The notes beneath the pieces were generated by a model, which did not search any database, was not told where the DNA came from, and saw only the letters and a list, made by a program, of their open reading frames with translations. Source: Acanthococcus lagerstroemiae (Eukaryota; Arthropoda; Insecta; Hemiptera; Eriococcidae). From it: DNA of 64,000 bases. Positions 3,686 through 63,034 of the stretch are shown in pieces. The DNA lies in NCBI GenBank assembly GCA_031841125.1, contig JAJSSI010000010.1, forward strand, positions 1,185,001 to 1,249,000, read 5' to 3'. Every line of letters starts with the position of its first letter. Position 1 is the first letter of the stretch. The position numbers were made by a program, and so were the translations under genes.

Positions 3686-3689
3686 CAGC

Positions 3690-4130
3690 CAGGAGAGCGC
3701 TACCAATTCTTCAAAACGCTACCACCTTTTGCTGCATGCAGCAAAAAGTGGCAGCGTTGGACAAAAAGGGGGCTAGCGCTAATCATCTACGCACCCATCT
3801 GCGACACACGTAGCGCTCCAGGAGCGCTACATCTATTACGCTCACAGGTCCCGCAATCTGCGACACTAGTAGCGTTGCCATGCGCGCTATATCTATGCTC
3901 ACACATCTTGCAATCATCAGCGACGCGAAGAGCGCTACATCTACGCTCACCCGCAATTTGCGACACCAGTAGCGTTGCCATGAGCGCTACATGTACGCTC
4001 ACCCACCCCTCAATCTGCGACACTAGTAGCACTACCATGAGTGCTACAATATGCTCACATGTCCCACAATCTGCGACACCAGTAGCGCTGCCATGAGCGC
4101 TGCAAGCAGCATTTTGCTCGCATTTCACTG
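3690..4130. repeat. left subterminal repeat array of the EnSpm-like element
   Basis: About six degenerate units of roughly 56 bp, each with TGCGACAC, TAGCGCT or TAGCGTT, GAGCGCTAC and TACGCTCAC blocks (about 3790-4110). They follow a short palindrome TTTTGCTGCATGCAGCAAAA near 3727-3746. Such arrays bind transposase in CACTA elements; that role here is inferred. Confidence 0.75.
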
Positions 4131-7203: not shown

Positions 7204-10200
7204 TGCCGTATTTTTCATGGGAGTCTCAATATGTCGCCATCTTTTCCTTGTTTGGTTTCGAGAACGAAACCAGTCTTTAACCACTTTCTCGGCGGCTCTT
7301 GTTTTTGTAATATCGCCCTCAAAGAAGTGATTCAAGCAGGAATCTGCAAGAAAATTTAAAAAAAGTTACTCAGTTCTAACGATTGAGAAATTGAACATCC
7401 GCGTTAGCGCGTCCACAAAGTATCTGATTGGACCTCATTATATCTCATTCGTTCGTAGGTATCCATTATTTTAGAAAGTTATGAAAAAAGAAACTTCACT
7501 TATTCCGGGAACGGAACTTTAATCAGAGAAACGCGAGGGTCGTTTGACAATTACCTAGGAATTACATGCACAGTAGGTATATACTGATGTAAGGTAACAA
7601 GTGTCGATACGTACTTTTCAGACATATGAATACTGGACTCCCATGAAATTTGCTTTTCTCCACCTTGTCGGTGTCTGTCCTTCGTGGCATTTCTCGATAA
7701 TAATAGAAAGCAAAAATACTTTCTTCCACCACGAAGGACATTGCTTTCCTGACGACCACTTTCGGCTGCAACTGTTCGGGGTGGCCCCTGAATAGTGTCT
7801 CCAAATATGATGTCTGAAAAATAACCATAATTTATGCATACATGTAAATAATGAAAACAGGTTTAGAAGCAAGTAAAGAAATATAGGTACACACTACACA
7901 TACAAATTCGTCCATTTTCTGCTCACGTATCAAATAGGCAGAAAAGTTTTCAAATCCCTCTTTATTAAGAGGGAATTTGAACAATCCGAAGGGGTTATTC
8001 GTCGATGTTTCCGGGACCCGGTGGCTTTCAACAACAGAGGTTTTGTTCAAATTATGTAATAAGATTTGCGTTTTTTTCTGAAAAGTTCAAGAACATGAGT
8101 AAAGAGAAAATGTATATAGTACCTATATGTATACTTGAAAAAAATATAAATAGTGCTTCAGACCTTAACAAAAGTTGAAAAGGAAAAATTGGTTAAAGGG
8201 GGAGAGTCAGAAGCTATCAAGATCATCATTACGGCAACACACATAAAATCAGAAAATTTAAAGGATCAATATAGAGGAAATAAATAGTCGATACCAAAAT
8301 GGTACGCTGTAACCGGAAGTAGATATATAATGCGGGTCCTGCGACAATTCGTGTATGTCACATTGCAGAACTAGATGTTTGAAGGGGAATGTTTATACAC
8401 ATTTCGCGCGAGATTTTGAGTATGTATGCGAGAAGTTGCACGATGTAATTATTTGCTGCGAATTTCAAACTATCGGGGATAAAAATTTAAAGTGGGGGAG
8501 GGGATGTATTAAACTATCGATCGGAGGTTGTTCTAAGTTTAATTCTCAAACGAATAGATGTTAAATATTTTATTATTATCATCAATATTTTCCGTTTATC
8601 CCGTTATGCTCTCCGATTTGTATGACTGGAAAGCGTAGTAGCGGAGACAGTTGAAATTTAAATTATGATTACATCATCGATATTTTGATCCGATCGAGCA
8701 TTTGATACTTTATTAATATTATCAATATTTCCCATTTATCCCCGTTATGCTCTCCAATTTGTATGACTGGAACGCTTAGTAGCGGAGACAGCCGGGATTT
8801 AAATTCCGGGCTTTGAGCTCAGCCTACAGCGGTGGATATACGATCGAATTTCACTTCTAGATAAATTCTTTTGCTAATAGGATATCCGATAAAAGTACCG
8901 TTTGATTTAGGCTTTCATTCCCATTATCAGGGGATTTTTACTCGAAATACAAAAAATACCTACTCGCCACTCTTCTGAAAAAAATATGGATTCAGTTCCA
9001 ATTGCTTGTAGGGTTTGCTTCTATGCTCTCACTCGCGAAATATACCGTTACTTTTGCAGCGACATTTCGCTTCAAAAATTCCAAGAAATCGCATTCCGAT
9101 CTCGTTCGACGCGCGAGCAATGGTAATTACTCCCGCAATAAACCAGTTCACTCCTAGTCAGAGTATTTTTTGGTATCGAGGGTTGTTTTATATTATCGAC
9201 AGTATCTCACACGTGAAATATACCGTTACTTTTGCTGCGACATTCCGCTTCAAAAATTCCAAGAAATCGCATTCCGATCTCGTTCGACGCGCGAGCAATG
9301 GTAATTACTCCCACAATAAACCAGTTCACTCCTAGCCAGAGCATTTTTGCTAATGAGGGTTGCTTCTAGGTTCTCTCTCATATATGAAATACATATACCA
9401 ATATAGCGTCAACATTCCTCAAGTCCCGTTATTCGCAAACCCCACTGTCAATAGCTAGTTAGCATGTTGGAATATCGTCTCCTGGAGAAAATCATCGTTG
9501 GCAAAATGATGAGTATATTTCATCCCCTCCAATTTTTCGACCATTGCAAGACCAAAGCAGAGTGAATATAATATTGAAACTGCAACTGCAATTTCATTCC
9601 ACGTTTTGCATCGCCTACGATACGACTTGAGATTTTTGCTGTTGCTCCTACATTTCGTTCTCGAATCTATCAAAGGATTTTAGCTGCTTTTCGCGGTCGA
9701 ATTTTCTCGCTCGAGTATAATAATTCTCGCATTTTTCAATTTTAATTTTAATTTTAACTTAATAAGACATTTTGCGTTTTATCTTTGTTGAAAAGACAAT
9801 TTTTTATACTTTTTCGATTTTATTTAAAAATTTTTGCTTCTCTCGCTGCGCGTGATTTTTCCGCTGTCTTTCTTCCGAGTTTACGCAGACATCTGATTCT
9901 AGTAAGTATTTCAATCTTTTATTATCGCCTCAGTTTATTCGCAAGTGAATTTACATAATTTTCCTTTGATTATTCATCATATGTGTTCATATATGCGGAA
10001 TATTAACGCAAAATTTATTTTCTGCTCAATAGAAATGACATCTAATAATAATAATCTCGCCGGATCAAACGCTGCCGCCTCTCCCTCTAGCTCCGATCGA
10101 GGTTCCACCGTCCCCATGGCTGGTCCTAGCGGGGTTTTCAATCCAACTCGCCTATCAATCTCAGTGAGTATTTTCCCATCATCAGCTGTATTTTTGATTA

Positions 10201-13200
10201 TTTATCGGCTTATTATTATATTTATTCGTGAATATTTTCAGACTAATTCTATGCGTTCGAGTATCGCGGTTCCCAATCGAGCTACTACCGCCGTTGCCAC
10301 AGCTCGCGAATCCGAGTCAAATGCGAGTCTCCCTCCAAACGCGGTAAGAATTTTCGCATTTATATAGTTTTCTTGTAATTCATCGAATTAATTAATTGAT
10401 TGCATAATACCTATGGAAATTTTGAATCGTATTCTAAATTTAATTATTTTTCAGGCTAATAGCCATATCGCGTCCGAGGGTAGAGACATCAATGACGAAA
10501 GAATCTCCTGTCTGATTTGTGGTACCAGTCATAAGAGGACATTTTGGTATCGTCACATCCTCTCGCAGGAACACAAAAACGCAGTTTACCGCAGCGAAGC
10601 TGAAAATACCAGTACTCGCGGTATTATCATCCAGCAGACTCCGGTAGGATTATGTATGATATTTTGTTTAAAGCCGACCGCGATAACAAAAATATCAAGT
10701 TCATTCGGCCCGAGCTGACCTCGATAGACGAAGCATCGCTCCAACAGACGCATGCGGAAGCCTTGGAAACCATAGAAAATTTTTTCGGGCATTTCTACGA
10801 GGGGATTTTGTATAGGTTAACCGAGGGGCTAGCTATACATAATGCCTTAAAGGTGCACAGTTCGCTAAGCCTATCGTTACAAAAATTTGCTGTCGGTGAC
10901 GAAATTTTACATGAAAATGTCTCTTTACGCACATCAGCAGAAGAAGTATTTGTAGCGACAGATTTGGAGGAGTGGACAACTCTTTTAATTGCTCAGCTAA
11001 TGGTGAAATACGAGGAATGTTCTCATCGTGGTTCCAACTGGACTTTATTAAAAGTCAACGATTTCGAATTGCATATTTCGAAATACAGTCCATTACGCGC
11101 TTCGTCTTATATTCCCCTTCCAACTGAAATAGTACAGAAAAAAGCTGTAATTAATGTTAAAAATTCTAATGATGAATTGTGTTTCAAATATGCAATTCTA
11201 AGTAAAGTAGCTTATAATAAAGTCCCTCATCCAAATCGCGTTAATATTTATAAGAAATCTGAGTACAAAAATTTATTTAATTTTAATGACATTACGTTTC
11301 CAACTCCCTTGGTAGACATAGGCATTTTCGAACGTAACAACACCGCGTCTGTTAATGTTTATGGATTAAGTAAGGAGGAAAGTAAACAATTTTTTGTTTA
11401 CCCAATCCGAATCTCGAAAAATTACGTGGCTGGTAACCATTTTGATTTGTTATATGTCCAAGATGAATCGTCCTTGACTTGCGAGGACGAACCCGTCAGA
11501 GGGCACTACTGTCTCATCACAAATTTGAGTCGTCTGATCAACTCGCAGAATAATAATCATAAGAATGCGCTCTATATATGCCACCGGTGTTTAGTATCTT
11601 TTAACAGCAAAGAGGCTCTAACTGAACACGGACTCATCTGCAATAAATTAGATGCGGTCCATTCGGTGATGCCTACAGGGGAAAAGGCCGTGCAGGTATT
11701 TAAGAATTATCAATTTAAGCAACGTGTTCCTTATGTAATTTACGCTGATTTCGAATGCGCTCTCGTTCCGCAATCAATTCCTACTCGTGAATTGAATGCT
11801 GAGAGTAGTTCGTACACAGATAAGACGCAAAAGCATGAGGCCACCTCGTATTGTTATTATATTGTAACAAACAACAAGAATGATCCGCGTGAGTATCAGC
11901 CTCAGTTGTATCGAGGGCCGAACGCAGTGCGACATTTCTGGCGGAGCCTACGGGCTGATTTGGAGAAAATCAGTATGATATATAGGAAAATTGTACCTAT
12001 GAATCTTACTCCGGAGGACTTGCTCTATCTTAATCAGAATATGAGCTGTCATATATGTGGTGCGGAAGCTCCCACCCCTGCGTTAAATGGCTTTGTTATT
12101 GATCACTGTCATTTAACGGGGAAAGTGAGGGGTTACGCGTGTAATAGTTGTAATCTTAATTATAAGTTGCCGTCATTTGTACCTATTATATTTCACAATG
12201 GGTCAAACTACGACTTTAAATTATTAATTAAAGATGTTTTTTCTGAAATTAACCCAAATGCTGACGATGAGATTGTTGACGGACGAACGAAATCTGCTCG
12301 AAGCGGTAGTGCTGGCAGAAGGAGAGTAAAGAGGGCGAGGAACAGCTTCGTATTAGACGAGGCTGAAGACAGTGACTCGGACAAAGACATGGAGGAGGGA
12401 GACATAGACGCAGATGGACTCGACGAAGATGATGAGGATTTGGAAGAGACGACGACTGCTGTCAGAGCTAACCGTGGAAAGACCTCGAATGATATAAAGG
12501 TCATTGCTCAAAATGCAGAGAATTTTATATCATTCGAGGTTAAAGTCACGCGAAATTTATCCGCGAGATTTATCGACAGTTTTCGATTCATGTCGTCGGG
12601 TCTCAGCACGTTGGTGGGTAATTTAAACGTGGAGCAATTAACTCATGTCTCCAAATTTTATCAGGGACAGCAATTTGAGCTATTGACTCGTAAAGGTGTA
12701 TTCCCATATGAATACATCGATAGTCAAGAGCGCTACAGCGAAAACTCTCTCCCGCCAAAGGAAGCGTTTTATAGCTCCTTGAGCGGTGAGGGGATATCCG
12801 GCGAAGACTATAATCACGCTAAGCTGGTATACAATGCGTTTAATTGTAATACCCTCGGTGATTATAGTGACATTTATCTCGAGACGGACGTATTATTATT
12901 AGCCGATGTATTTGAGAATTTCAGAGACTTTTGCTTAGAGGCATATCAGTTAGATGCTGCGTGGTGCTACTCAGCTCCGGGGCTTTCTTGGAATGCGATG
13001 CTAAAGACTACTGGCGCTCGCTTGGAGCTGCTAGAAGACATTAGCATGTATCAATTTTTCGAAGCTTCAGTGAGAGGTGGCTATGCTGCATCATCTCTCA
13101 GATATGCCAAGGCTAATGTCCGCAAATGAGCGATTTTAATCCGGATGAGCCTCTAAATTCGCTATTCTACATTGATGCTAATAACTTATACGGATATGCA

Positions 13201-16200
13201 ATGTGCGAACCCCTCCCATTGCGAGATTTCCGATGGCTCGAACAACATGAAATCAACTCGCTGGATGTTTCATCAATTCCAGAAGACGGCTCAATTGGCT
13301 ATGTTTTAGAAGTTGATTTGGAATATCCAGCTGAGATACATGATGCTCATGCAGACCTTCCGTTTTGCCCTGATAAATTAAGAACTTGTAATAATAAGAA
13401 TACCCCGCCTAAGTTGATTGCGACATTACACGATAAGAATAGATATATTATTCATTATCGGTATCTACAGTCTGCACTAAAGCACGGCCTTAAATTGAAA
13501 AAGATACATCGAGGGGTTAGATTTCATCAGGAACCCTGGATGTTGCCATACATCCTTCTCAATAATGAAAGAAGGAAAATGGCGACTTCAGAGTTTCAGA
13601 AAGATCTCTTTAAATTACTAAATAACTGTATATTTGGAAAATTCCTGGAAAGCATCCGCCGTAGACGCAATTTTATCCTCACAAACCGCCTCCCCACCAT
13701 CCTGAAGAATATCCGCCTACCAACCTTCAAACGTCGTCATATCCTCAATGAAGAAACCAATCTCGTTCTCATTGAAAGAGCTCGCACTAAAATTCTCTTT
13801 GATCGGTTTGTCCAAGCTGGTGGAGCAATTTTAGACATTTCCAAAATGCACATGTACGACTTCCATTACAAAACTATGAAATCAACAATATTCCCAGATT
13901 CCAATATTTTTCTTGCGTATACGGATACAGATTCCTTCATTTACCAAATTCCGGTCCAATCTTCCCTGAACGATCATTTGTTTACATTTAAAAATTATTT
14001 TGACTTTTCCGAATATCCACCTTCTCATCCTCTATTTGATCCAACGAATAAAAAGGTCTTAGGTAAATTTAAAGATGAACTCAAAGGTGGCATTATGAGC
14101 GAGTTCTGCGGGTTGAAAGCGAAAATGTACGCGTTTAAAAGTACCAGCCACGAGGTAAAAAAAGCCAAGGGAGTGAAGAAAAATATTATTAAGCAAACGT
14201 TAAATTTTAATTCTTATTTTAATTGTTTGAAAAATCGCGATCGCATCTATCGAACCATGACGAGCATACGGAGTTTTGGTCAGCAATTGTTTACGATTCG
14301 CCAAAACAAGGTTGCTCTATCGATGCTAGATGATAAACGATACATCTTGCCAGATGGTGTGCATACACTCCCCTGGGGTCATTATAGCATTCCTCTGGAG
14401 GATGATATTATTTACCAAAGCAATTCAGATTCGATAGAGACGGTTGACGGTGAAGAGGAAGAAGAAGACGTTTAATTTTTTAAGCTTGTATATGTGTGTG
14501 TATTTGTGTATATATATATTTTTAATTATCGAAAGTGGGGATGAGTTAGCTCTCTCATCGAGATTCAAATATTTTATAATTTAATGCGCTAGTCTCAGTT
14601 TGTTCAAATTATTCGAAGCGGCAAGTACCTAGTTTTATGCTTAAGATGGCAGATTCTGAATTAATTTTATCAAAAATGTACAGTTTAGAACGCGTTTCAT
14701 TATCGTCCGAAATTGGAATGAATCCTTCGAGCAAGGAATATAATATTCAAGTGAAACTTTGCAATCCGGTAAATAGCATTTTAATGAATGTCAACGATTT
14801 TGTTCGAGTTTCGAGCTACATTTTATCGCTGAAAAGTAATGATCAGAAATCTAAAGAGAGTGATGAAGAGGAAAAAGCCATCTCCGTCAATGTCGCTTCT
14901 GATATAGGTGATAATTTCATTCATCTCGAAATTGAAGAATATAACCTCGTATATTCTCCCAACGATGGTGATAAACTTCAATTTTATTCGAAAATTAATT
15001 TCATGTTATGTCCACCCGTTTTTCAAGTGGAGCTGAATAATTATGTACAATTTATAGCGCGATTTAACATTGCCATAACTTATTATATTATGTTTTTGGA
15101 AAAATATCGGAGTTACGCGAGCCTTGTACATGAACGCATAATAACATTTTACACAAAATGGTTACATAACGAGGAAAATTCATTGAAATTTGATTTCGAT
15201 TTTTTAGCAGATAATATTTTAACTTTGGAAAGCGCGAGTTTACCGAGAATTAAACATCCCCACCTTGTCTGTGATTATACACGTCTAGATTATAATGTAT
15301 GCTATCTGATAGACTCTGAAATACGTTTAAAATCTGTTTTCCCTATTTATATGCAAATTTTACTTTCAGATATTGTTGATGATGATTAATATACCAATCT
15401 ATGTAAATTTTATTTGTTGTATGTATTTGTATATGTTCAGGTATTCATGTATCAATGTATATCAATAGCACCAGCATCATGAATGAAATTTTGCGTGTAC
15501 ATAAAAAATTAATAAATGTATTTAAAAATATTACATGTTTTACAATCTTTTCACAATGCTCGAAAGAGGAGAATACTGTACAATCTTATCGTGAAGTATT
15601 AAACAATGACATAGAGTATTTGCAGGAACAGGCACAGCAGTTTCAATTTCTACGCGAATATCCACAGTCCCAGTCTTGATGCTATCATTTTGAAAATTAC
15701 AGTCCAAGACTACTATAAAATTATCTTCTAAAAATTTTTTCCTAGTTAATACGGGACAATAATTTTGACGTTGATAGTACGAGTATTGGAAATCTGAATA
15801 CATTCTGTACAAAAACGATATGTCTTTTTTGCTGACATCTAAATTTAGGTTCATGTTTGGATAGTATTCGTTATTTAAAAATAGTTTCACATCTCTGAGG
15901 CGAAGATTATCAAACTTGTCCATTTGTTTTTTCAACTGGTTCTTCCTATCGATGAGAAAGGCTAAAAGCACATATCTAGGCTTCTCCAGCTGTGTGGTCG
16001 TCATGACTGTCCAATTATTTCGAGTTGTCATAGATAATGAAGGATTTTCAATCAGCTCCCAACTTCTGAACGGCATCAAAATCGAAGTATCTTTTTCAAC
16101 TAGGCTCAGCAGGGCAATACGCGAGACATCACTGGCTGTGATATATGGAACCAGCCAATTAATATCCTGGATCTGAACTGAAGGCATATCGTTGTCAACA

Positions 16201-19200
16201 GATGAAAATAATGCGTTTGTGTCGTTGTTTGAACGCTGAAGGATGAGCTCCTGTTTCATCGAAATTATTACGCAATTGTAATCCTCCATAAATCCGAGGC
16301 AAACTAGTTCGTGCAGCTGAATCAGATGCGCGATTTATTAGAAACGGCATCGCCTATCTATTTGATTGCATAAGCTACAGCCTGAATAATGTGGAAGTGG
16401 ATAAGACAAGAAACTTGGGACCTGCTACTCTACTTAAAGGCTTGGCGTCTATGACTGTAGACGAGTACCTTTATTCCTCAAATTCTGGTTTTGCAAACTT
16501 GAATGCCGATGAAATTTTGACTGATGACGGTGAATTTAGCGTGTGCATTCCTCTGAGAAATTTGCTCGGATTTATGGAGGATTACAATTGCGTAATAATT
16601 TCGATGAAACAGGAGCTCATCCTTCAGCGTTCAAACAACGACACAAACGCATTATTTTCATCTGTTGACAACGATATGCCTTCAGTTCAGATCCAGGATA
16701 TTAATTGGCTGGTTCCATATATCACAGCCAGTGATGTCTCGCGTATTGCCCTGCTGAGCCTAGTTGAAAAAGATACTTCGATTTTGATGCCGTTCAGAAG
16801 TTGGGAGCTGATTGAAAATCCTTCATTATCTATGACAACTCGAAATAATTGGACAGTCATGACGACCACACAGCTGGAGAAGCCTAGATATGTGCTTTTA
16901 GCCTTTCTCATCGATAGGAAGAACCAGTTGAAAAAACAAATGGACAAGTTTGATAATCTTCGCCTCAGAGATGTGAAACTATTTTTAAATAACGAATACT
17001 ATCCAAACATGAACCTAAATTTAGATGTCAGCAAAAAAGACATATCGTTTTTGTACAGAATGTATTCAGATTTCCAATACTCGTACTATCAACGTCAAAA
17101 TTATTGTCCCGTATTAACTAGGAAAAAATTTTTAGAAGATAATTTTATAGTAGTCTTGGACTGTAATTTTCAAAATGATAGCATCAAGACTGGGACTGTG
17201 GATATTCGCGTAGAAATTGAAACTGCTGTGCCTGTTCCTGCAAATACTCTATGTCATTGTTTAATACTTCACGATAAGATTGTACAGTATTCTCCTCTTT
17301 CGAGCATTGTGAAAAGATTGTAAAACATGTAATATTTTTAAATACATTTATTAATTTTTTATGTACACGCAAAATTTCATTCATGATGCTGGTGCTATTG
17401 ATATACATTGATACATGAATACCTGAACATATACAAATACATACAACAAATAAAATTTACATAGATTGGTATATTAATCATCATCAACAATATCTGAAAG
17501 TAAAATTTGCATATAAATAGGGAAAACAGATTTTAAACGTATTTCAGAGTCTATCAGATAGCATACATTATAATCTAGACGTGTATAATCACAGACAAGG
17601 TGGGGATGTTTAATTCTCGGTAAACTCGCGCTTTCCAAAGTTAAAATATTATCTGCTAAAAAATCGAAATCAAATTTCAATGAATTTTCCTCGTTATGTA
17701 ACCATTTTGTGTAAAATGTTATTATGCGTTCATGTACAAGGCTCGCGTAACTCCGATATTTTTCCAAAAACATAATATAATAAGTTATGGCAATGTTAAA
17801 TCGCGCTATAAATTGTACATAATTATTCAGCTCCACTTGAAAAACGGGTGGACATAACATGAAATTAATTTTCGAATAAAATTGAAGTTTATCACCATCG
17901 TTGGGAGAATATACGAGGTTATATTCTTCAATTTCGAGATGAATGAAATTATCACCTATATCAGAAGCGACATTGACGGAGATGGCTTTTTCCTCTTCAT
18001 CACTCTCTTTAGATTTCTGATCATTACTTTTCAGCGATAAAATGTAGCTCGAAACTCGAACAAAATCGTTGACATTCATTAAAATGCTATTTACCGGATT
18101 GCAAAGTTTCACTTGAATATTATATTCCTTGCTCGAAGGATTCATTCCAATTTCGGACGATAATGAAACGCGTTCTAAACTGTACATTTTTGATAAAATT
18201 AATTCAGAATCTGCCATCTTAAGCATAAAACTAGGTACTTGCCGCTTCGAATAATTTGAACAAACTGAGACTAGCGCATTAAATTATAAAATATTTGAAT
18301 CTCGATGAGAGAGCTAACTCATCCCCACTTTCGATAATTAAAAATATATATATACACAAATACACACACATATACAAGCTTAAAAAATTAAACGTCTTCT
18401 TCTTCCTCTTCACCGTCAACCGTCTCTATCGAATCTGAATTGCTTTGGTAAATAATATCATCCTCCAGAGGAATGCTATAATGACCCCAGGGGAGTGTAT
18501 GCACACCATCTGGCAAGATGTATCGTTTATCATCTAGCATCGATAGAGCAACCTTGTTTTGGCGAATCGTAAACAATTGCTGACCAAAACTCCGTATGCT
18601 CGTCATGGTTCGATAGATGCGATCGCGATTTTTCAAACAATTAAAATAAGAATTAAAATTTAACGTTTGCTTAATAATATTTTTCTTCACTCCCTTGGCT
18701 TTTTTTACCTCGTGGCTGGTACTTTTAAACGCGTACATTTTCGCTTTCAACCCGCAGAACTCGCTCATAATGCCACCTTTGAGTTCATCTTTAAATTTAC
18801 CTAAGACCTTTTTATTCGTTGGATCAAATAGAGGATGAGAAGGTGGATATTCGGAAAAGTCAAAATAATTTTTAAATGTAAACAAATGATCGTTCAGGGA
18901 AGATTGGACCGGAATTTGGTAAATGAAGGAATCTGTATCCGTATACGCAAGAAAAATATTGGAATCTGGGAATATTGTTGATTTCATAGTTTTGTAATGG
19001 AAGTCGTACATGTGCATTTTGGAAATGTCTAAAATTGCTCCACCAGCTTGGACAAACCGATCAAAGAGAATTTTAGTGCGAGCTCTTTCAATGAGAACGA
19101 GATTGGTTTCTTCATTGAGGATATGACGACGTTTGAAGGTTGGTAGGCGGATATTCTTCAGGATGGTGGGGAGGCGGTTTGTGAGGATAAAATTGCGTCT

Positions 19201-22200
19201 ACGGCGGATGCTTTCCAGGAATTTTCCAAATATACAGTTATTTAGTAATTTAAAGAGATCTTTCTGAAACTCTGAAGTCGCCATTTTCCTTCTTTCATTA
19301 TTGAGAAGGATGTATGGCAACATCCAGGGTTCCTGATGAAATCTAACCCCTCGATGTATCTTTTTCAATTTAAGGCCGTGCTTTAGTGCAGACTGTAGAT
19401 ACCGATAATGAATAATATATCTATTCTTATCGTGTAATGTCGCAATCAACTTAGGCGGGGTATTCTTATTATTACAAGTTCTTAATTTATCAGGGCAAAA
19501 CGGAAGGTCTGCATGAGCATCATGTATCTCAGCTGGATATTCCAAATCAACTTCTAAAACATAGCCAATTGAGCCGTCTTCTGGAATTGATGAAACATCC
19601 AGCGAGTTGATTTCATGTTGTTCGAGCCATCGGAAATCTCGCAATGGGAGGGGTTCGCACATTGCATATCCGTATAAGTTATTAGCATCAATGTAGAATA
19701 GCGAATTTAGAGGCTCATCCGGATTAAAATCGCTCATTTGCGGGACATTAGCCTTGGCATATCTGAGAGATGATGCAGCATAGCCACCTCTCACTGAAGC
19801 TTCGAAAAATTGATACATGCTAATGTCTTCTAGCAGCTCCAAGCGAGCGCCAGTAGTCTTTAGCATCGCATTCCAAGAAAGCCCCGGAGCTGAGTAGCAC
19901 CACGCAGCATCTAACTGATATGCCTCTAAGCAAAAGTCTCTGAAATTCTCAAATACATCGGCTAATAATAATACGTCCGTCTCGAGATAAATGTCACTAT
20001 AATCACCGAGGGTATTACAATTAAACGCATTGTATACCAGCTTAGCGTGATTATAGTCTTCGCCGGATATCCCCTCACCGCTCAAGGAGCTATAAAACGC
20101 TTCCTTTGGCGGGAGAGAGTTTTCGCTGTAGCGCTCTTGACTATCGATGTATTCATATGGGAATACACCTTTACGAGTCAATAGCTCAAATTGCTGTCCC
20201 TGATGAAATTTGGAGACATGAGTTAATTGCTCCACGTTTAAATTACCCACCAACGTGCTGAGACCCGACGACATGAATCGAAAACTGTCGATAAATCTCG
20301 CGGATAAATTTCGCGTGACTTTAACCTCGAATGATATAAAATTCTCTGCATTTTGAGCAATGACCTTTATATCATTCGAGGTCTTTCCACGGTTAGCTCT
20401 GACAGCAGTCGTCGTCTCTTCCAAATCCTCATCATCTTCGTCGAGTCCATCTGCGTCTATGTCTCCCTCCTCCATGTCTTTGTCCGAGTCACTGTCTTCA
20501 GCCTCGTCTAATACGAAGCTGTTCCTCGCCCTCTTTACTCTCCTTCTGCCAGCACTACCGCTTCGAGCAGATTTCGTTCGTCCGTCAACAATCTCATCGT
20601 CAGCATTTGGGTTAATTTCAGAAAAAACATCTTTAATTAATAATTTAAAGTCGTAGTTTGACCCATTGTGAAATATAATAGGTACAAATGACGGCAACTT
20701 ATAATTAAGATTACAACTATTACACGCGTAACCCCTCACTTTCCCCGTTAAATGACAGTGATCAATAACAAAGCCATTTAACGCAGGGGTGGGAGCTTCC
20801 GCACCACATATATGACAGCTCATATTCTGATTAAGATAGAGCAAGTCCTCCGGAGTAAGATTCATAGGTACAATTTTCCTATATATCATACTGATTTTCT
20901 CCAAATCAGCCCGTAGGCTCCGCCAGAAATGTCGCACTGCGTTCGGCCCTCGATACAACTGAGGCTGATACTCACGCGGATCATTCTTGTTGTTTGTTAC
21001 AATATAATAACAATACGAGGTGGCCTCATGCTTTTGCGTCTTATCTGTGTACGAACTACTCTCAGCATTCAATTCACGAGTAGGAATTGATTGCGGAACG
21101 AGAGCGCATTCGAAATCAGCGTAAATTACATAAGGAACACGTTGCTTAAATTGATAATTCTTAAATACCTGCACGGCCTTTTCCCCTGTAGGCATCACCG
21201 AATGGACCGCATCTAATTTATTGCAGATGAGTCCGTGTTCAGTTAGAGCCTCTTTGCTGTTAAAAGATACTAAACACCGGTGGCATATATAGAGCGCATT
21301 CTTATGATTATTATTCTGCGAGTTGATCAGACGACTCAAATTTGTGATGAGACAGTAGTGCCCTCTGACGGGTTCGTCCTCGCAAGTCAAGGACGATTCA
21401 TCTTGGACATATAACAAATCAAAATGGTTACCAGCCACGTAATTTTTCGAGATTCGGATTGGGTAAACAAAAAATTGTTTACTTTCCTCCTTACTTAATC
21501 CATAAACATTAACAGACGCGGTGTTGTTACGTTCGAAAATGCCTATGTCTACCAAGGGAGTTGGAAACGTAATGTCATTAAAATTAAATAAATTTTTGTA
21601 CTCAGATTTCTTATAAATATTAACGCGATTTGGATGAGGGACTTTATTATAAGCTACTTTACTTAGAATTGCATATTTGAAACACAATTCATCATTAGAA
21701 TTTTTAACATTAATTACAGCTTTTTTCTGTACTATTTCAGTTGGAAGGGGAATATAAGACGAAGCGCGTAATGGACTGTATTTCGAAATATGCAATTCGA
21801 AATCGTTGACTTTTAATAAAGTCCAGTTGGAACCACGATGAGAACATTCCTCGTATTTCACCATTAGCTGAGCAATTAAAAGAGTTGTCCACTCCTCCAA
21901 ATCTGTCGCTACAAATACTTCTTCTGCTGATGTGCGTAAAGAGACATTTTCATGTAAAATTTCGTCACCGACAGCAAATTTTTGTAACGATAGGCTTAGC
22001 GAACTGTGCACCTTTAAGGCATTATGTATAGCTAGCCCCTCGGTTAACCTATACAAAATCCCCTCGTAGAAATGCCCGAAAAAATTTTCTATGGTTTCCA
22101 AGGCTTCCGCATGCGTCTGTTGGAGCGATGCTTCGTCTATCGAGGTCAGCTCGGGCCGAATGAACTTGATATTTTTGTTATCGCGGTCGGCTTTAAACAA

Positions 22201-25200
22201 AATATCATACATAATCCTACCGGGAGTCTGCTGGATGATAATACCGCGAGTACTGGTATTTTCAGCTTCGCTGCGGTAAACTGCGTTTTTGTGTTCCTGC
22301 GAGAGGATGTGACGATACCAAAATGTCCTCTTATGACTGGTACCACAAATCAGACAGGAGATTCTTTCGTCATTGATGTCTCTACCCTCGGACGCGATAT
22401 GGCTATTAGCCTGAAAAATAATTAAATTTAGAATACGATTCAAAATTTCCATAGGTATTATGCAATCAATTAATTAATTCGATGAATTACAAGAAAACTA
22501 TATAAATGCGAAAATTCTTACCGCGTTTGGAGGGAGACTCGCATTTGACTCGGATTCGCGAGCTGTGGCAACGGCGGTAGTAGCTCGATTGGGAACCGCG
22601 ATACTCGAACGCATAGAATTAGTCTGAAAATATTCACGAATAAATATAATAATAAGCCGATAAATAATCAAAAATACAGCTGATGATGGGAAAATACTCA
22701 CTGAGATTGATAGGCGAGTTGGATTGAAAACCCCGCTAGGACCAGCCATGGGGACGGTGGAACCTCGATCGGAGCTAGAGGGAGAGGCGGCAGCGTTTGA
22801 TCCGGCGAGATTATTATTATTAGATGTCATTTCTATTGAGCAGAAAATAAATTTTGCGTTAATATTCCGCATATATGAACACATATGATGAATAATCAAA
22901 GGAAAATTATGTAAATTCACTTGCGAATAAACTGAGGCGATAATAAAAGATTGAAATACTTACTAGAATCAGATGTCTGCGTAAACTCGGAAGAAAGACA
23001 GCGGAAAAATCACGCGCAGCGAGAGAAGCAAAAATTTTTAAATAAAATCGAAAAAGTATAAAAAATTGTCTTTTCAACAAAGATAAAACGCAAAATGTCT
23101 TATTAAGTTAAAATTAAAATTAAAATTGAAAAATGCGAGAATTATTATACTCGAGCGAGAAAATTCGACCGCGAAAAGCAGCTAAAATCCTTTGATAGAT
23201 TCGAGAACGAAATGTAGGAGCAACAGCAAAAATCTCAAGTCGTATCGTAGGCGATGCAAAACGTGGAATGAAATTGCAGTTGCAGTTTCAATATTATATT
23301 CACTCTGCTTTGGTCTTGCAATGGTCGAAAAATTGGAGGGGATGAAATATACTCATCATTTTGCCAACGATGATTTTCTCCAGGAGACGATATTCCAACA
23401 TGCTAACTAGCTATTGACAGTGGGGTTTGCGAATAACGGGACTTGAGGAATGTTGACGCTATATTGGTATATGTATTTCATATATGAGAGAGAACCTAGA
23501 AGCAACCCTCATTAGCAAAAATGCTCTGGCTAGGAGTGAACTGGTTTATTGTGGGAGTAATTACCATTGCTCGCGCGTCGAACGAGATCGGAATGCGATT
23601 TCTTGGAATTTTTGAAGCGGAATGTCGCAGCAAAAGTAACGGTATATTTCACGTGTGAGATACTGTCGATAATATAAAACAACCCTCGATACCAAAAAAT
23701 ACTCTGACTAGGAGTGAACTGGTTTATTGCGGGAGTAATTACCATTGCTCGCGCGTCGAACGAGATCGGAATGCGATTTCTTGGAATTTTTGAAGCGAAA
23801 TGTCGCTGCAAAAGTAACGGTATATTTCGCGAGTGAGAGCATAGAAGCAAACCCTACAAGCAATTGGAACTGAATCCATATTTTTTTCAGAAGAGTGGCG
23901 AGTAGGTATTTTTTGTATTTCGAGTAAAAATCCCCTGATAATGGGAATGAAAGCCTAAATCAAACGGTACTTTTATCGGATATCCTATTAGCAAAAGAAT
24001 TTATCTAGAAGTGAAATTCGATCGTATATCCACCGCTGTAGGCTGAGCTCAAAGCCCGGAATTTAAATCCCGGCTGTCTCCGCTACTAAGCGTTCCAGTC
24101 ATACAAATTGGAGAGCATAACGGGGATAAATGGGAAATATTGATAATATTAATAAAGTATCAAATGCTCGATCGGATCAAAATATCGATGATGTAATCAT
24201 AATTTAAATTTCAACTGTCTCCGCTACTACGCTTTCCAGTCATACAAATCGGAGAGCATAACGGGATAAACGGAAAATATTGATGATAATAATAAAATAT
24301 TTAACATCTATTCGTTTGAGAATTAAACTTAGAACAACCTCCGATCGATAGTTTAATACATCCCCTCCCCCACTTTAAATTTTTATCCCCGATAGTTTGA
24401 AATTCGCAGCAAATAATTACATCGTGCAACTTCTCGCATACATACTCAAAATCTCGCGCGAAATGTGTATAAACATTCCCCTTCAAACATCTAGTTCTGC
24501 AATGTGACATACACGAATTGTCGCAGGACCCGCATTATATATCTACTACCGGAGGTACACCTCTTCAATTGCGAAACGTTTTCATTCACTCGCAGAATTT
24601 GAATAAGTCTAAATTATCGGTAAGTAGTTTCATTGCCATAAGTCCAAGTGTGCAACTAAAGTACCCTCATACAACTCTCTGAAGTTAGTCGAACAAACCA
24701 CATTTACTTTCTGTTACTCAAGACGATCCGAAAACCTTACATGTACCTTCACCCTTTTCAACATTTTTTTTATTGGCGAGGCGTACCTACCTCTTCAGCA
24801 TGTAATGCGTATATGGATCAAGATGCAGCATACTCACAAGAATATGGAATGGTCAGGCCAAATTAAATCAAGTTTAAGTAGAAAACTATTCATAATGAAA
24901 ATTAAACAAATTTTCGCATTATACTAACTGTGTTGGAGAAGTCTTTGTTTGTGTCGGACAAGGCTTTGTTTATAAGAAAACCATAAACAATTGATGATCT
25001 CATTGTTTGAAGCGATTCCTCCGCGACTGAACATAACCAACAATAAATTATGGTTAACATTGTAAAGTAGAACGTAATTAAGGCCGGAATCGAAAAATAA
25101 TAAAATTACTTACTCGACCTTCTCCTTGACTTGCGCAAGAATGTTTTTCGTTGTTGTCTCGTGTACCCTGCGACAAAATAATATTATAGGGTTTGTTATT

Positions 25201-28200: not shown

Positions 28201-30892
28201 GATGATAACATTCTGAAACAATACAAATGAGTACAGAGTACTAGTAATCGGTCCATATTTAGGTTCAATAAGTTAAACAGTTAGACAGCTATTTCAAACT
28301 TACAATGAAGTAGCTTCGTAAACACGTACTCATTTCCCGTACTGTTTAAAAGCATACCGTAATATTTCCCAGTAATTCTTGAAACTGGGAGAGCAACAAA
28401 ATCATCTGTACCGTCGGGTATACTAGCCCTCAGAGTATCAAAATGAACAGAATCACACGGAAGTGAGTACAATGACTGTGTTTTTTTTATCTGCGTACCA
28501 AATACGTACGGTTGATTATCTACAATTTGAAAGTGATGAACGATAAACACAAACTGGTTATCGATTTGGCAATATCTATTCGCGAATCCATCATCGAAAC
28601 AATATTCGGGAGTCCTGAATCTCTTGAAAGTACCAGCACTAGTCTTACAATCGAATCCAAGTTTTCGCTTTTTCTTCTCCCGACATGCTTGAAAATGATT
28701 CATTTCATAGACTCTTCGCGCTACTTGCGTTGCAGGCAAGTGCGCTGACCTGACAAGGGCGCTGAGAAATCCGAGGCGCGACTCATAAGCATACGCACTC
28801 ATGGATATGGCCGTGCCAAACCTTTCCACGTCGTCTGCCAAGTGTAGCAATGAGTGCACCACGTAGGAAACCAGTTCTGGCTTGTAGATATTTTTGAAAT
28901 CTGAGACAAAAGCGCGCAACAGTTTTCGAGCGAATTGAATATTTTCTGGGTATTTAATGGCTTCAGAATTATTTAATACTCGGTACGCGATATGTAAAAA
29001 GAGGAAGTGCCTATACTGCCTCGCAGGCAATATTTCCTGAAATATTGTTGGCCCCAAATATAGTACAATGGCGCGATATTCTTTCGCCTTGAAAAACGCC
29101 AAGTCAGCCAGTGGCCGCGGTTTTCTCTGAAATTCATCCGGACAAAACTTACGAATGCTAAGCAACCTGTCGGATAATTGGTCTTTCACGTGTGGCAGGA
29201 GGCTAAATTCGGTACGCTGCGTCCACAGTTTCATTAATTTTCGCATGACACCCAGTTCAACCACGTGCATGGGATCGACCTGACAATGTGAAACTGGATC
29301 AAAACTTTCAATTCTTAGAAGCTCAGAACACTTTGTTTCACCGTCTCTTAAATAAGTATAAAACTGTTCTCTAGTTCGTGCTGGGGCATCTACATCTAGA
29401 AAGCACATGCGATGATTTATGTAAACACCAATCACTTCACATTTGTGACAACCTTCATATGCATTGAAATTCGGCGTATTCAAAACTAGACAGCGAGCTG
29501 GGGCATCGAAACATGCATTTCTCAGCGAAATACGGTACGTTTTATTTCTCAAAGTAAAACCAGCCTCTAACTCCTTCATCTCGTCGACGAATTTCTTCAA
29601 AAACTTATTACTATACCTTGGTTTTGACCGCCCATAATATAGGCCAATTTCAAAAGGTCTACACTGGTTGAAACGGCCTAGTATAGGCCAAAATGATTTT
29701 TGAGCGCTGGTGAAGACTGGAATGCCATCCACGTTTATATGTAAAGCTAGATTATCATCTTTAGGATCAAATTCAGCGGCCTCATTCTCGAGCGCCCATT
29801 TGATTCCAAAATAAATGAAGACATCGCGACTCCCTGTATCAGTCATTTTGAGTGAGGTTGACTGTAAGTTAGGATTAAGATCATCTGCAAATATACTGTC
29901 TAAATCGCTGCCCTCGCTTGCCGCCTCACTGTCGCTATCATCAATTTTATTATTAACGTCGAACTGCGGATAAGACCCAACAGCAGTTTTAAAATCAGCA
30001 GGTAGCATGAGGATTTCCATAGGATTGGTGAATTTGCGAAGAGTATTTAAGATTGCGTTAATCGCAGTGATTGTAACATGATGCTCGATTAATGTCCTGT
30101 ACAGATCTTGATTTCCGATAGTAGTCTCTTTATTATCAGTATTCAATATCAAATCTATACAGAAGAAAAGAAAAAGATCGAGGATATATAACTTGCTACT
30201 GAGATGATACGTTTCAAAATAATAATTTGTATCTCTATAATAATTATATACTTTCGAACCTCGTAATACAGTGTTTTTAGCTCTTTTCACGTAAATTTCG
30301 TTAGCAAACTCTGTTCACCTCAAAGTTCAAGTAATATCTCTGTTCTCTCTCTTTTTCACACTCTCGAGTTCTCAGTCCACTTTTATCTTCGTTCAATGAG
30401 CCCTTTATAAACCCTTACACCCCTTCATCGTCTCTTCATCTTCTTTCCCTCTTCTCTTCCTCCATACTGCTTTTTTCCTCGCTTTGCTTCTCCCCCACAG
30501 CTCAGCTTATTCACACTTCCACTCTCCTTCCGCACTTCTTCTTTCCCTGACACCCTTCATTTTTTCCCTTTTAATTTTAAATTATTGGTGAATCCTTGAA
30601 GAAGAAAATACTAACTATTATCGGAAACACCATCACGCAGAAGTTCGTCGTCATCATCCTCCATGACAGTCTCTTCGTCATCGTCATCCCCGGTAATTTG
30701 TAAACCGAGAAGCGATATTTCATTTCTTTGCTCGGGTATGTCATCCATATCAACTTCATCATCCAAAAACATATGGGAAGAAGCATCAACATGCATGAAT
30801 ACCTCATGTGAGAGGTTCTCAGATATATCAATTTGATGACAACGCTCAAAATTTTCATTTGAAAAATTGTCTGCAAGATCATCATCTGAAAC
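7198..30892 (-). CDS. EnSpm/CACTA-like DDE transposase with C-terminal DUF4806-like domain, ten inferred exons
   Basis: Exons inferred from splice sites and motifs: 30892-30616, 30154-28304, 28212-27971, 27769-27613, 25974-25723, 25627-25352, 24608-24561, 8077-7904, 7813-7615, 7343-7198. Exon 1 is acidic (runs of DDDD). Exon 2 holds the DDE-type core: LHINVDGIPVFTSAQ, QVDPMHVVELGVMRKLM, then LLHLADDVERFG and YESRLGFLSALVRS, giving the expected D...D...E order of animal EnSpm-like transposases. Exon 3 has a WLLPKENLFFWPS block. Exon 6 repeats a VPSWP...YTICNLN module twice. Exons 8-10 carry FKFPLNKEGFENFSAYL and a helical tail ending in KVVKDWFRSRNQTRKRWR, like DUF4806. The 16.2-kb palindrome lies in the intron between exons 7 and 8, with its edge 13 bases beyond the exon 7 end. 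LINE and MITE copies lie in the intron between exons 4 and 5. I did not check every exon junction for frame, so intactness is probable rather than shown. The start codon is not identified. Confidence 0.75.
8575..8805. repeat. duplicated block in left terminal region of the palindrome
   Basis: Two direct copies of a block containing ATCAATATTT, GTTATGCTCTCC, TTTGTATGACTGGAA and AGTAGCGGAGACAG, about 135 bp apart. A mirror copy lies at about 24060-24290. It is in the non-coding 1.7 kb between the terminus and the polymerase. Function unknown; a replication or packaging signal is possible. Confidence 0.8.
9015..9345. repeat. tandem duplication of about 180 bp in left arm
   Basis: Two near-identical units share GAAATATACCGTTACTTTTG, TCGTTCGACGCGCGAGCAAT and AATAAACCAGTTCACTCCTA. 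The protein-like frame 9015-9335 arises from the repeat and is not treated as a gene. Mirror copy at about 23520-23850. Confidence 0.85.
10035..14475 (+). pseudogene. left-arm protein-primed DNA polymerase B, broken by two single-base deletions
   Basis: Mirror copy of the right-arm polymerase. Exon 1 10035-10163, exon 2 10242-10343, exon 3 from 10455, with GTGAGT/CAG and GTAAGA/CAG introns. Frames break near 10,643 and near 13,122, where the right arm has CCC and this arm has CC. The reading is thus split into the parts before 10,643, 10652-13129 and 13126-14475. All motifs of the intact copy are still present. One amino acid difference (Y for H near 12,658) is visible. Because both losses are in C runs, sequencing or assembly error is possible; otherwise this is a very young pseudogene. 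Confidence 0.9.
14637..15389 (+). CDS. unknown 250-aa protein, left-arm copy
   Basis: Open frame on the plus strand 161 bp after the polymerase stop, in the same orientation. The translation is identical to the right-arm copy at 17474-18226. I do not recognise it. It has an acidic patch (SDEEEK near residue 78), a tyrosine- and phenylalanine-rich central segment near residues 138-160 that is hydrophobic but interrupted by charged residues, and an acidic C-terminus. No cysteine cluster or enzyme motif is obvious. A second ATG occurs at residue 4. Position between polymerase and the reversed third gene suggests a structural or replication accessory protein, but this is a guess. Confidence 0.75.
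   Translation: MLKMADSELILSKMYSLERVSLSSEIGMNPSSKEYNIQVKLCNPVNSILMNVNDFVRVSSYILSLKSNDQKSKESDEEEKAISVNVASDIGDNFIHLEIEEYNLVYSPNDGDKLQFYSKINFMLCPPVFQVELNNYVQFIARFNIAITYYIMFLEKYRSYASLVHERIITFYTKWLHNEENSLKFDFDFLADNILTLESASLPRIKHPHLVCDYTRLDYNVCYLIDSEIRLKSVFPIYMQILLSDIVDDD
15540..16289 (-). pseudogene. left-arm copy of the reversed third gene, N-terminally truncated
   Basis: The 249-residue frame is identical to the C-terminal part of the central frame at 16391-17323. It starts at an internal Met because the palindrome junction at 16,298 removes everything upstream. It runs convergently toward the 250-aa gene, with about 150 bp between their stops. The right-arm copy keeps at least 61 more codons upstream. 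This truncation is the main evidence that the palindrome formed by fold-back within the gene. Confidence 0.85.
16292..17323 (+). CDS. central gene of the palindrome: conserved-looking protein, capsid-like candidate, 5' end lost
   Basis: The reading frame is open from just after a TAA at 16289-16291 to the stop at 17321-17323, but has no ATG until well inside; a GTG occurs at 16391. The N-terminal block (GIAYLFDCISYSLNNVEVD) is in the unique spacer and the rest in the right arm. Other landmarks are VCIPLRNLLGF, ISMKQELILQRSNND, TTTQLEKPRYVLLAFLIDRK, and a C-terminal VDIRVEIETAV...CLILHDKI. Alternating hydrophobic strands, many aromatic residues and no catalytic motif would suit a jelly-roll structural protein, and it is encoded opposite to the polymerase. 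I infer, with limited confidence, a major-capsid-like or other structural protein. The frame begins at the fold-back junction, so the true N-terminus is missing. Confidence 0.6.
   Translation: MRGKLVRAAESDARFIRNGIAYLFDCISYSLNNVEVDKTRNLGPATLLKGLASMTVDEYLYSSNSGFANLNADEILTDDGEFSVCIPLRNLLGFMEDYNCVIISMKQELILQRSNNDTNALFSSVDNDMPSVQIQDINWLVPYITASDVSRIALLSLVEKDTSILMPFRSWELIENPSLSMTTRNNWTVMTTTQLEKPRYVLLAFLIDRKNQLKKQMDKFDNLRLRDVKLFLNNEYYPNMNLNLDVSKKDISFLYRMYSDFQYSYYQRQNYCPVLTRKKFLEDNFIVVLDCNFQNDSIKTGTVDIRVEIETAVPVPANTLCHCLILHDKIVQYSPLSSIVKRL
16299..16564. other. asymmetric centre (loop) of the 16-kb palindrome
   Basis: The only non-mirrored DNA inside the element. Mirror pairing is exact up to 16298/16565, where both sides continue with GCAAA-like sequence, suggesting junction microhomology. 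The spacer is coding for the N-terminal part of the central protein on the plus strand. It fixes the side from which the strand folded back. Confidence 0.85.
17474..18226 (-). CDS. unknown 250-aa protein, right-arm copy
   Basis: Mirror image of 14637-15389 with the same translation. It lies 161 bp downstream of the intact polymerase on the same strand and converges on the central gene. No family recognised. Notable parts are the MADSELILSKMYS start region, an acidic EEEK patch, a YYIMFLEKY segment and a DIVDDD end. Equal preservation in both arms does not show selection, because the arms are nearly identical overall. Confidence 0.75.
   Translation of the reverse strand: MLKMADSELILSKMYSLERVSLSSEIGMNPSSKEYNIQVKLCNPVNSILMNVNDFVRVSSYILSLKSNDQKSKESDEEEKAISVNVASDIGDNFIHLEIEEYNLVYSPNDGDKLQFYSKINFMLCPPVFQVELNNYVQFIARFNIAITYYIMFLEKYRSYASLVHERIITFYTKWLHNEENSLKFDFDFLADNILTLESASLPRIKHPHLVCDYTRLDYNVCYLIDSEIRLKSVFPIYMQILLSDIVDDD
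18388..22830 (-). CDS. protein-primed DNA polymerase type B, spliced, intact right-arm copy (about 1,417 aa)
   Basis: Three coding exons: 22830-22702, 22623-22522, 22410-18388; a further 5' UTR intron is likely. The ATG is chosen because exon 1 is then 43 codons with a clean GTGAGT donor. Approximate landmarks: zinc-finger-like CLICGTSH...H near residues 95-117; CHRC...H...C near 455; ExoI YADFECAL near 507; an endonuclease VII/HNH-like zinc module CHICG...DHCHLTGKVRGYACNSCN at 609-645; ExoII FHNGSNYDF near 656; a basic-acidic insertion (RRRVKRAR then DEDDEDLEE) at about 690-750; ExoIII-like YLETDVLLLADVF near 882; motif A FYIDANNLYG near 982; motif B LLNNCIFGKF near 1134; motif C YTDTDS near 1233; then GLKAKMYAFKS. 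This is the DNA_pol_B_2 family seen in Polintons, adenoviruses and linear plasmids. It would copy a linear genome from a terminal protein. No separate terminal-protein gene is seen. Confidence 0.92.
23520..23850. repeat. tandem duplication of about 180 bp in right arm
   Basis: Mirror of 9015-9345 with the same two units. The frame at 23530-23850 is repeat-derived. Confidence 0.85.
24060..24290. repeat. duplicated block in right terminal region of the palindrome
   Basis: Mirror of 8575-8805, two direct copies containing CTGTCTCCGCTACTA and GGAGAGCATAACGGG. It lies within 500 bp of the right terminus. Confidence 0.8.
24609..25351. other. intron of the EnSpm transposase gene
   Basis: 743 bp between inferred exons 6 and 7 on the minus strand, bounded by GTAAGTC and TAATTTAG. 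No other feature is seen. Confidence 0.5.
26098..26286. mobile_element. MITE with long inverted termini and CAT duplication
   Basis: Left arm GGTGGATTTACATTCGAGTC and right arm complementary to it (GACTTGAATGTAAATCTACC), flanked by CAT on both sides. Internal TGTCGCGACAT-like words repeat. It lies in an intron of the EnSpm transposase. Superfamily not assigned; a 3-bp duplication would suit PIF/Harbinger or EnSpm derivatives. Confidence 0.75.
26600..27430 (-). pseudogene. LINE reverse transcriptase fragment
   Basis: On the minus strand, broken frames show a lysine-rich linker and then the reverse transcriptase N-terminal block INLRKGKAPGVDETPAKLL near 26.8 kb and a GEMPEDFTKSAIVTIPKK-like block near 26.65 kb, typical of jockey/L1-type LINEs. 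Plus-strand serine/leucine-rich frames in the same place are shadows. It is inserted in the intron between EnSpm exons 4 and 5. Confidence 0.75.
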
Positions 30893-57879: not shown

Positions 57880-58123
57880 TGTTAAGTTAAATCGATGCCA
57901 CGTTGAGTGAACGACATTCAAGCACATTGAAACCGTGTTACTAATATATTAAAGAAAAGACGACATATTGATACCACAAAGTCACGACACAGAATAACAC
58001 GGAACGAGGAAACGAGAAAAGAAAACGGGCAAAAGTTTTGAAACATAGAATACATAAAAACACGCAGATGCTCACCAGAGCTTAGATAATACAAATTACT
58101 CCGTGTATGCAACACGCCCAACA
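57880..58123 (-). repeat. Copia B 3' LTR
   Basis: 244 bp, pairs with 62791-63034. The adjoining 58124-58591 is non-coding 3' region with the polypurine tract at 58124-58140. Confidence 0.95.
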
Positions 58124-58591
58124 TTCCCCTTCCTTTTTATAAAAAATTCGCGTTGAAAAACCTTACTATTATTTTCCTAGACCCTTAATATTACAACATA
58201 GCAAAAATAGCGAAATTTTTCCTATAATCTAAGTCATTCGAATTCAAAATACATTTATACAATTTGACTAAATACAAGTACGAAAAAAAAAAAAATGGAA
58301 TACATTTAAATAAATCTTCGAGTCAATTGATGTGTAAATACGATGTAAAACTACGTCAATAAAATAAAGAGTTTGGTAACCTACTCTTTCTACTTCATCG
58401 CATTTTCATCATTTATATCAAGAACAAAGTGAATAACAAAAATAAACTGTACCGACTAGATGTAGTGGAATTGAAACACGTAAAAAATATGGTCATGCAT
58501 GATGGTCTATAAAGAATAAAGTTTTACAAGACGAGGCAAATTAAATTTCTTATGGGAGGTATCCCAGAAAACTGTCCAAAACATAATTTAT

Positions 58592-62164: not shown

Positions 62165-62189
62165 TGCGCTAATATGTCGTTCAAATCTA

Positions 62190-62609
62190 CTAAAATATTC
62201 TTGAGCATCTTCGCCCTTCCGACATTTTAAGGTTCAAAAGCTGTTTTTTCGCAAGAATACGCATTAATAAAGTTTTACGGCGATAAACAGAATCGAGTAT
62301 ATCGAGCATTTTTTTGGCAGTATCCTCATGACCAATTTCGTCTAAAATACGATCTGTAACCGCATCTACCAAAGTACTTCTAACTTTCACGTCTAACTTA
62401 TCCCAAGCAGCAGCATCAGCTGCAACTGTAGGTCTCGGTTTAGTCAAGGCGTTGTACCATTCCTTCCTCTCTACAAAGAGAGTAAAACGAAGACGAAATT
62501 TCGAATATTCCGTTCCATCAAAACGCTTCGTATTCCAATTGTCGTTCGATGCCATGTTCCGGCTTGCCACAAAAACGAACCAACAAAAGATGACGTACCA
62601 TACAACCAC
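62190..62609 (-). CDS. Copia B gag N-terminal part, separated by a one-base shift
   Basis: Frame with SNDNWNTKRFDGTEYSKFRL and a helical region ending RILAKKQLLNLKMSEG; a Copia-type gag (UBN2-like). The likely initiator is the Met before ASNDN, near 62,555, not the upstream residues. Near 62,217 the frame shifts by one base in a GGG run, after which it stops early. Whether this is a mutation or a base-call error cannot be told here; programmed shifting is unusual in Copia. Confidence 0.85.
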   Translation of the reverse strand: MVVWYVIFCWFVFVASRNMASNDNWNTKRFDGTEYSKFRLRFTLFVERKEWYNALTKPRPTVAADAAAWDKLDVKVRSTLVDAVTDRILDEIGHEDTAKKMLDILDSVYRRKTLLMRILAKKQLLNLKMSEGRRCSRIF

Positions 62610-62790
62610 AATTACCGTGGGCGGCTATCGAGACTTTCAAGCAGCGACGTGAACCCATCACAAAGATCACGAACCGGCATGGAATATTCCGTCAGCAGTC
62701 ATAATCGGTGAACCAAAACTGAAGAAAACTGAACTTCAAATGCATCGCTCGGGCTACAAACTGGCGATCAACCACAAACCACTGCTACCA

Positions 62791-63034
62791 TGTTATGTTA
62801 AATCGATGCCACGTTGAGTGAACGACATTCAAGCACATTGAAACTGTGTTACTAATATATTAAAGAAAAGACGACATATTGACACCACAAAGTCATGACA
62901 CAGAATAACACGGAACGAGGAAACGAGAAAAGAAAACGGGCAAAAGTTTTGAAACATAGAATACATAAAAACACGCAGATGCTCACCAGAGCTTAGATAA
63001 TACAAATTACTCCGTGTATGCAACATGCCCAACA
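62791..63034 (-). repeat. Copia B 5' LTR
   Basis: 244 bp, pairs with 57880-58123. The primer-binding site begins at 62,790, reading TGGTAGCAGTGG on the minus strand. Confidence 0.95.

Follow-up and report, generated by a model that had tools for sequence, protein, structure and literature searches.

How did an element of Maverick type come to carry the same end at both of its termini? This question is raised by a 64,000-nucleotide stretch of contig JAJSSI010000010.1 of Acanthococcus lagerstroemiae (the window), in which a palindromic insertion of 16,230 bp was delimited to positions 8318-24547 by self-comparison of the whole window and base-by-base alignment of the two arms. A sequence-only reading had placed the element at 8312..24553; the element is indeed there, while that span also takes in the target duplications on both sides. 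As set out below, I consider the palindrome to be a defective snap-back derivative of a Maverick/adintovirus that was formed during extrachromosomal copying and integrated in trans, with a probability of about 0.6.

In the self-comparison, 8313-16303 matched 24552-16561 in inverted orientation (7,993 columns, 99.94% identity), in agreement with the earlier description of two mirrored arms of about 7.98 kb around a 266-bp centre. When aligned base by base, arm A and arm B (Table 1) differ at three places, by one substitution and two one-base length differences. The other inverted matches within the element (101-162 columns) are its own subterminal repeats viewed across the mirror, and the longest inverted match outside the element has 139 columns at 81% identity (E ≤ 1e-10). 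Since inverted matches elsewhere in the window reach no further than this, chance is excluded as the origin of the palindrome. The outer ends are AGTAG...CTACT, and the inward reading from both sides is AGTAGATATATAATG. A perfect 6-bp duplication, ACCGGA, borders both ends, and the match does not continue past it (GCTGTA on the left, GGTACA on the right). The chance of an exact 6-bp match at a given boundary is about 1/4,096, if even base use is assumed. Both termini are the same polymerase-side end of the element. The AG...CT ends, the flanking ACCGGA and the use of one element end for both termini had all been proposed from the letters, and they stand.

Two separate head-to-head insertions were ruled out by the single shared 6-bp duplication and by the terminal 15-mer, which occurs exactly only at the two outer ends. 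An AGTAG-like 15-mer with two mismatches to the element end lies at 7572-7586, 746 bp beyond the left end; it was taken as a chance resemblance, since in the self-comparison the likeness does not extend beyond it. The first 20 bases of the element end found no match in IMG/VR.

What kind of element is it? Each end opens with about 2 kb that hold the subterminal repeats and a 128-aa frame without a family match; further inward come a polymerase gene, a gene of 250 codons called gene X here, and the 3′ part of a hexon gene, which points the opposite way to the polymerase and gene X. The frame listing thus agrees with the claim that the duplicated half consists of polymerase, a 250-aa gene and part of a third gene. 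The subterminal repeats may serve as signals for replication or packaging. Among 6,821 candidates, 81 are related to the polymerase at E ≤ 1e-3, the nearest (P0001) showing 51% identity over 95% of the query; those that are named belong to ants, a spider, a wasp, aphids and molluscs. A Pfam scan found an endonuclease VII-type insert in it. In an alignment with 23 relatives chosen out of the 81, the D-x-E of what I take to be the first exonuclease block is present in 23/23, and the DTDS of the presumed polymerase block in 20/23. An OTU-like domain has been named for the N-terminus of the adintovirus polymerase (PMC11071296).

The third gene matches the Pfam double jelly-roll-like domain PF21738 (E=4.6e-80). 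It has 156 relatives among 2,078 candidates, one of which (P0082) shows 63% identity over 100% of the query; among the 120 of them that were listed, P0147 and P0183 are named insect adintovirus hexons. The named relatives of the polymerase and, among the matches listed, of the hexon are mostly arthropod. Searches of IMG/VR with the polymerase or hexon sequence gave no close relatives, a polymerase profile search of the same database gave two distant ones only (L001 and L002), and a polymerase search of a genome-contig database gave no match. The Maverick-type origin suggested earlier is borne out by the polymerase and hexon relatives together with the AG...CT ends and the 6-bp duplication.

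Is the centre a filler between the arms? Going beyond the sequence-only reading, it was found that the centre is coding sequence of the hexon gene. The hexon frame opens at 16292 right after a stop codon, crosses all 266 bp of the centre and enters arm B. It aligns with its relatives from the first codon (Ile-Arg-Gly-Lys-Leu here, IRGKLE in P0082), and the first ~60 residues of the relatives are absent from it (14 relatives chosen from the 120 listed). Thus, the centre is the original continuation of arm B and not filler, and a foreign or random origin of the centre is ruled out. Arm B is treated as the original arm because its hexon frame continues into the centre. The frame closes inside seven bases that are common to the centre side and arm A. 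Thus, the mirror copy begins inside the hexon gene.

How was the turn made? On the strand running inward through arm B, the junction bases can pair with hexon sequence lying no more than 280 nt earlier, forming an 11-bp inverted match interrupted by one bulged base (Table 1). Across arm B and the centre, 41 of 7,557 candidate positions for the turn offer a stem at least as good within 600 nt, and 1/500 random 13-mer pairs reached its duplex energy (-11.1 kcal/mol). Both controls are partly circular, because seven base pairs match arm A in any case. The 266-bp loop is as expected from intrastrand fold-back. The fold-back replication proposed earlier therefore holds in part: the junction does resemble an intrastrand fold-back, with a short loop and a putative inverted microhomology within one gene, while the placing of that event on free replicating DNA goes beyond what the junction shows.

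What became of the other half of the element? Besides the polymerase, gene X and the hexon, the element frames of at least 120 aa comprise one of 153 aa that gave no Pfam match and one of 125 aa that runs antisense to the polymerase and was left out of the domain scan. The possibility of an integrase hidden in the arms was considered; none was present among the scanned frames of this length, remnants in shorter frames not being sought. The ATPase, protease and penton/minor capsid likewise had no match among the scanned frames. Across the nine window frames scanned, rve matches were found only in two copia-type retrotransposon frames. Since the missing genes were not found in frames of at least 120 aa, the palindrome is filed as Maverick-derived and not as a complete member.

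In intact vertebrate Mavericks, which have AG-type ends and 6-bp duplications, the inverted repeats span 46-1,447 bp and the whole element 16,862 ± 1,678 bp (PMC8097293). The palindrome equals them in length, AG...CT ends and 6-bp duplication, but its inverted repeats of 7.98 kb are more than five times the longest reported there. Two Spodoptera Mavericks carry an integrase, an ATPase and a protease besides the polymerase (PMC5803895), and adintoviruses have been described by their polymerase, hexon and an integrase with a chromodomain (PMC11071296). With the Maverick/Polinton elements and the adintoviruses (Adintoviridae), the palindrome has in common a family B polymerase with an endonuclease VII-type insert, an adintovirus hexon and a size of ~16-17 kb. 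Unlike a complete Maverick or adintovirus, it has a truncated hexon, half the gene set present twice, and no integrase, ATPase, protease or penton among the scanned frames.

The two distant relatives allow a further comparison. The metagenomic contig L001 bears a polymerase, an integrase (PF00665, E=6.4e-8) and an A32-type ATPase. Its integrase (L001:13511-14434) lies tail to tail with the polymerase, whereas the same place in the palindrome arms is taken by gene X, with no integrase. L001 and L002 have one polymerase gene each (frames listed, those of L002 without a domain scan). No inverted match longer than 48 nt was found in the 15,756 of 17,398 bases of L001 that were compared, nor any inverted arms exceeding that length in 13,561 of the 15,128 bases of L002.

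What does gene X encode? It has no Pfam, PHROG or NCBIfam match, and only 2 of 169 candidates proved to be sequence relatives. In a structure search with its predicted fold, the best matches were PUR-type proteins, which bind single strands, and the nearest viral model was an insect adintovirus protein named MOSUB. A penton was considered and rejected, as the model suggests no jelly roll and PUR proteins match best. Judging from the predicted structure, it is possible that gene X is a single-strand-binding protein of the adintovirus group.

The following course of events may be proposed. Starting at the polymerase-side end, synthesis of a strand would have proceeded inward along arm B and across the centre before turning back, with the inverted match at the junction (loop ~257 nt) probably priming the reversal. 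Extension of the folded strand back to its start would have yielded a hairpin, and re-priming at the open end by terminal protein would have turned this into a linear palindrome with two competent ends. The palindrome would have retained a replication module, namely the polymerase and the predicted single-strand-binding protein in two copies each, so that further copying as a satellite of the parent is conceivable. Because both ends have the same terminal sequence, an integrase supplied by the parent could join both to the chromosome, and 6 bp would have been duplicated in doing so. I infer that formation preceded integration. One end mirror-duplicated with a short unique loop, a feature of a snap-back defective genome, is present here. 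With a total length close to one unit genome, the palindrome is compatible with a packaging limit, although a single case proves nothing. It is put forward more tentatively, as something that falls short of an even chance, that the element was a palindromic satellite genome of an adintovirus-type Maverick, which retained just the two copies of the replication module, replicated itself as free linear DNA at unit length and entered the germline with the capsid and integrase of its parent.

Table 1. Coordinates of the palindromic element and its parts in the window
Feature	Position	Strand	Remarks
Left target-site duplication, ACCGGA	8312..8317		Identical to 24548-24553; flanking bases differ
Arm A, 7,981 bp	8318..16298	+	Reads inward from element end, AGTAGATATATAATG
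Subterminal direct repeats, ~100 bp x2 and ~162 bp x2	8565..9365	+	Mirrored at 23500-24300; self-comparison
Polymerase copy of arm A	10413..14475	+	Three frames after two one-base frameshifts; frame listing, arm alignment
Gene X, arm A copy, 250 aa	14637..15389	+	Same protein as in arm B; frame listing
Hexon gene, shorter 3′ part in arm A	15540..16289	-	249 codons from first ATG; frame listing, Pfam scan
Fold-back junction	16292..16303	+	12 bases pairing with same-strand hexon sequence; 7+4 bp, one bulged base, loop ~257 nt
Hexon gene, longer part	16292..17323	+	PF21738, E=4.6e-80 for 290 codons from first ATG
Centre (loop), 266 bp	16299..16564	+	Hexon coding, continuous with arm B; alignment with 14 relatives
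Arm B, 7,983 bp	16565..24547	-	Mirror of arm A; treated as original arm
Gene X, arm B, 250 aa	17474..18226	-	Predicted fold: four strands and a helix, twice, like Pur-alpha
Family B DNA polymerase, arm B, 1,354 aa	18388..22452	-	Open; endonuclease VII-type insert, catalytic motif cores kept
Right target-site duplication, ACCGGA	24548..24553		Identical to 8312-8317

Several points weigh against a snap-back origin on free DNA. The palindrome is a single locus. At the junction, 7/11 base pairs of the stem lie in bases that match arm A by construction, and the circularity spares only the shorter part of the match. The parental status of these seven bases rests on two hexon columns, which show Ile in 9/14 relatives and Arg in 2/14, both of the latter among the three nearest; I infer only from these columns that the seven-bp part of the stem was parental. 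Adintoviruses with truncated and duplicate hexons are on record (PMC11071296), so that a cut hexon alone is not unusual. The truncations reported there are C-terminal, whereas the hexon in the window is cut at its N-terminus. The polymerase gives no match to Pfam DNA_pol_B_2 at E ≤ 1, while its relative P0003 is matched by that model at E=3.9e-21. The PUR assignment of gene X rests on a model with a mean pLDDT (predicted local distance difference test) of 58 that was built from three sequences, and a search of the PDB with its sequence profile gave no significant solved structure (best E 0.031). Finally, a repair event in the chromosome could produce an identical arrangement.

Such an event would run as follows. 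An ordinary element whose inverted repeats were short entered the chromosome first; a break on its integrase side was then mended into a palindrome, either through fold-back or with the opposite end as template, reached by way of the inverted repeats, and the outer duplication was kept. This route requires no integrase in trans and would retain ACCGGA and both ends; moreover, replication-based inverted duplication of chromosomal DNA has been described as origin-dependent inverted-repeat amplification (PMC4689423). However, the fold-back of a chromosomal break would normally extend the palindrome into the left flank, and the limit seen here is exactly the end of the element. A second event would also be required, a switch to the right flank by way of the short terminal repeat. 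Intrastrand fold-back of one strand explains the 266-bp centre at once. By these arguments, a rearrangement after insertion is unlikely, but it deserves to be kept in mind.

The palindrome may also have arisen in the library or the assembly, from an inverted chimeric molecule (a missed adaptor or an amplification chimera) assembled into a normal element. In favor of this, the arms are near-identical, and two of their three differences are one-base length changes, which are frequent among long-read errors. However, a chimeric read would mirror the flanks, and the left and right flanks differ; the bases adjoining the element match nothing elsewhere in the window (self-comparison, E ≤ 1e-10). Given that the flanks differ and yet bear the same 6 bp, an artefact would have had to take an improbable route via the terminal repeats. 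It also speaks against one that the turn falls within a gene, at a putative inverted microhomology, although amplification chimeras can show microhomology too. An artefact thus seems rather improbable. It would be more surprising still if the palindrome were a member of a stable, naturally palindromic family whose integrase always comes from another element. Replication genes are kept in both arms and nothing in the window speaks against such a family, but each arm has its hexon cut, and at a different point, which suggests a scar rather than a design, and the distant relatives L001 and L002 are not built in this way, with their single polymerase genes and no inverted arms of more than 48 nt in the stretches compared. 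A defective derivative, folded back during extrachromosomal copying and then integrated, remains the origin that I favor.

Do similar forms exist in other systems? Foldback and other DNA transposons with long terminal inverted repeats resemble the palindrome in the great length of their repeats; to my knowledge, they carry no family B polymerase or hexon. In 1976, Daniell reportedly described mirror-duplicated ends of defective adenovirus genomes, and these are said to arise by protein-primed copying of one end, as proposed for the palindrome. Defective adenovirus genomes are free or packaged DNA in infected cells, whereas the palindrome is fixed in a chromosome with a target duplication. In 1985, Kikuchi reportedly described hairpin and palindromic derivatives of the yeast linear plasmid pGKL1, which are said to be snap-back forms of a linear replicon with a terminal protein, like the palindrome. 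Unlike it, they belong to a yeast plasmid with no capsid gene and no integration. In the citing passages available, Daniell 1976 is mentioned only for incomplete particles with left-end DNA and not for mirror duplication, and Kikuchi 1985 for covalently closed hairpin plasmids.

Other mobile sequences were found in the window. A copia-type retrotransposon at 57880-63034 has a gag-pol frame of 1,213 aa (58592-62233) between 244-bp direct repeats of 98% identity (57880-58123 and 62791-63034), which are apparently its long terminal repeats. A degraded copia-type pol lies on the minus strand at 1514-3718, beside an exact 271-bp direct repeat (1-271 and 1030-1300). A 658-aa frame with DUF4371 (PF14291) at 37983-39959 is presumably a relative of hAT-type transposases. 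A 677-aa frame at 28281-30314 has no Pfam match at E ≤ 1e-3 and by eye has a transposon-derived look.

Is a palindromic Maverick new? Free replicating forms of Mavericks have been inferred mainly from gene content. Their particles had not been observed as of PMC8097293. No palindromic or snap-back Maverick was found in the titles and abstract openings searched, the founding adintovirus paper lying outside that search, and none is described in the available excerpts of PMC6431247, PMC11071308, PMC6035795 and PMC12368964.

If the proposed origin is true, the locus records one replication error and one integration of a free form, with the turning point legible almost to the base. It would be a fossil trace of extrachromosomal Maverick replication, and it would mean that the integrase needs the terminal sequence only and not two different ends. 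Such events would be countable, since genomes can be scanned for Mavericks with the same end at both termini. The presence of the polymerase and a predicted PUR-type protein together in the arms suggests a single-strand-binding partner for adintovirus replication. If the more tentative satellite origin is also true, this would be, as far as the literature was searched, the first integrated Maverick genome of the defective-interfering type, and direct sequence evidence that Mavericks are copied in animals as free, protein-primed DNA.

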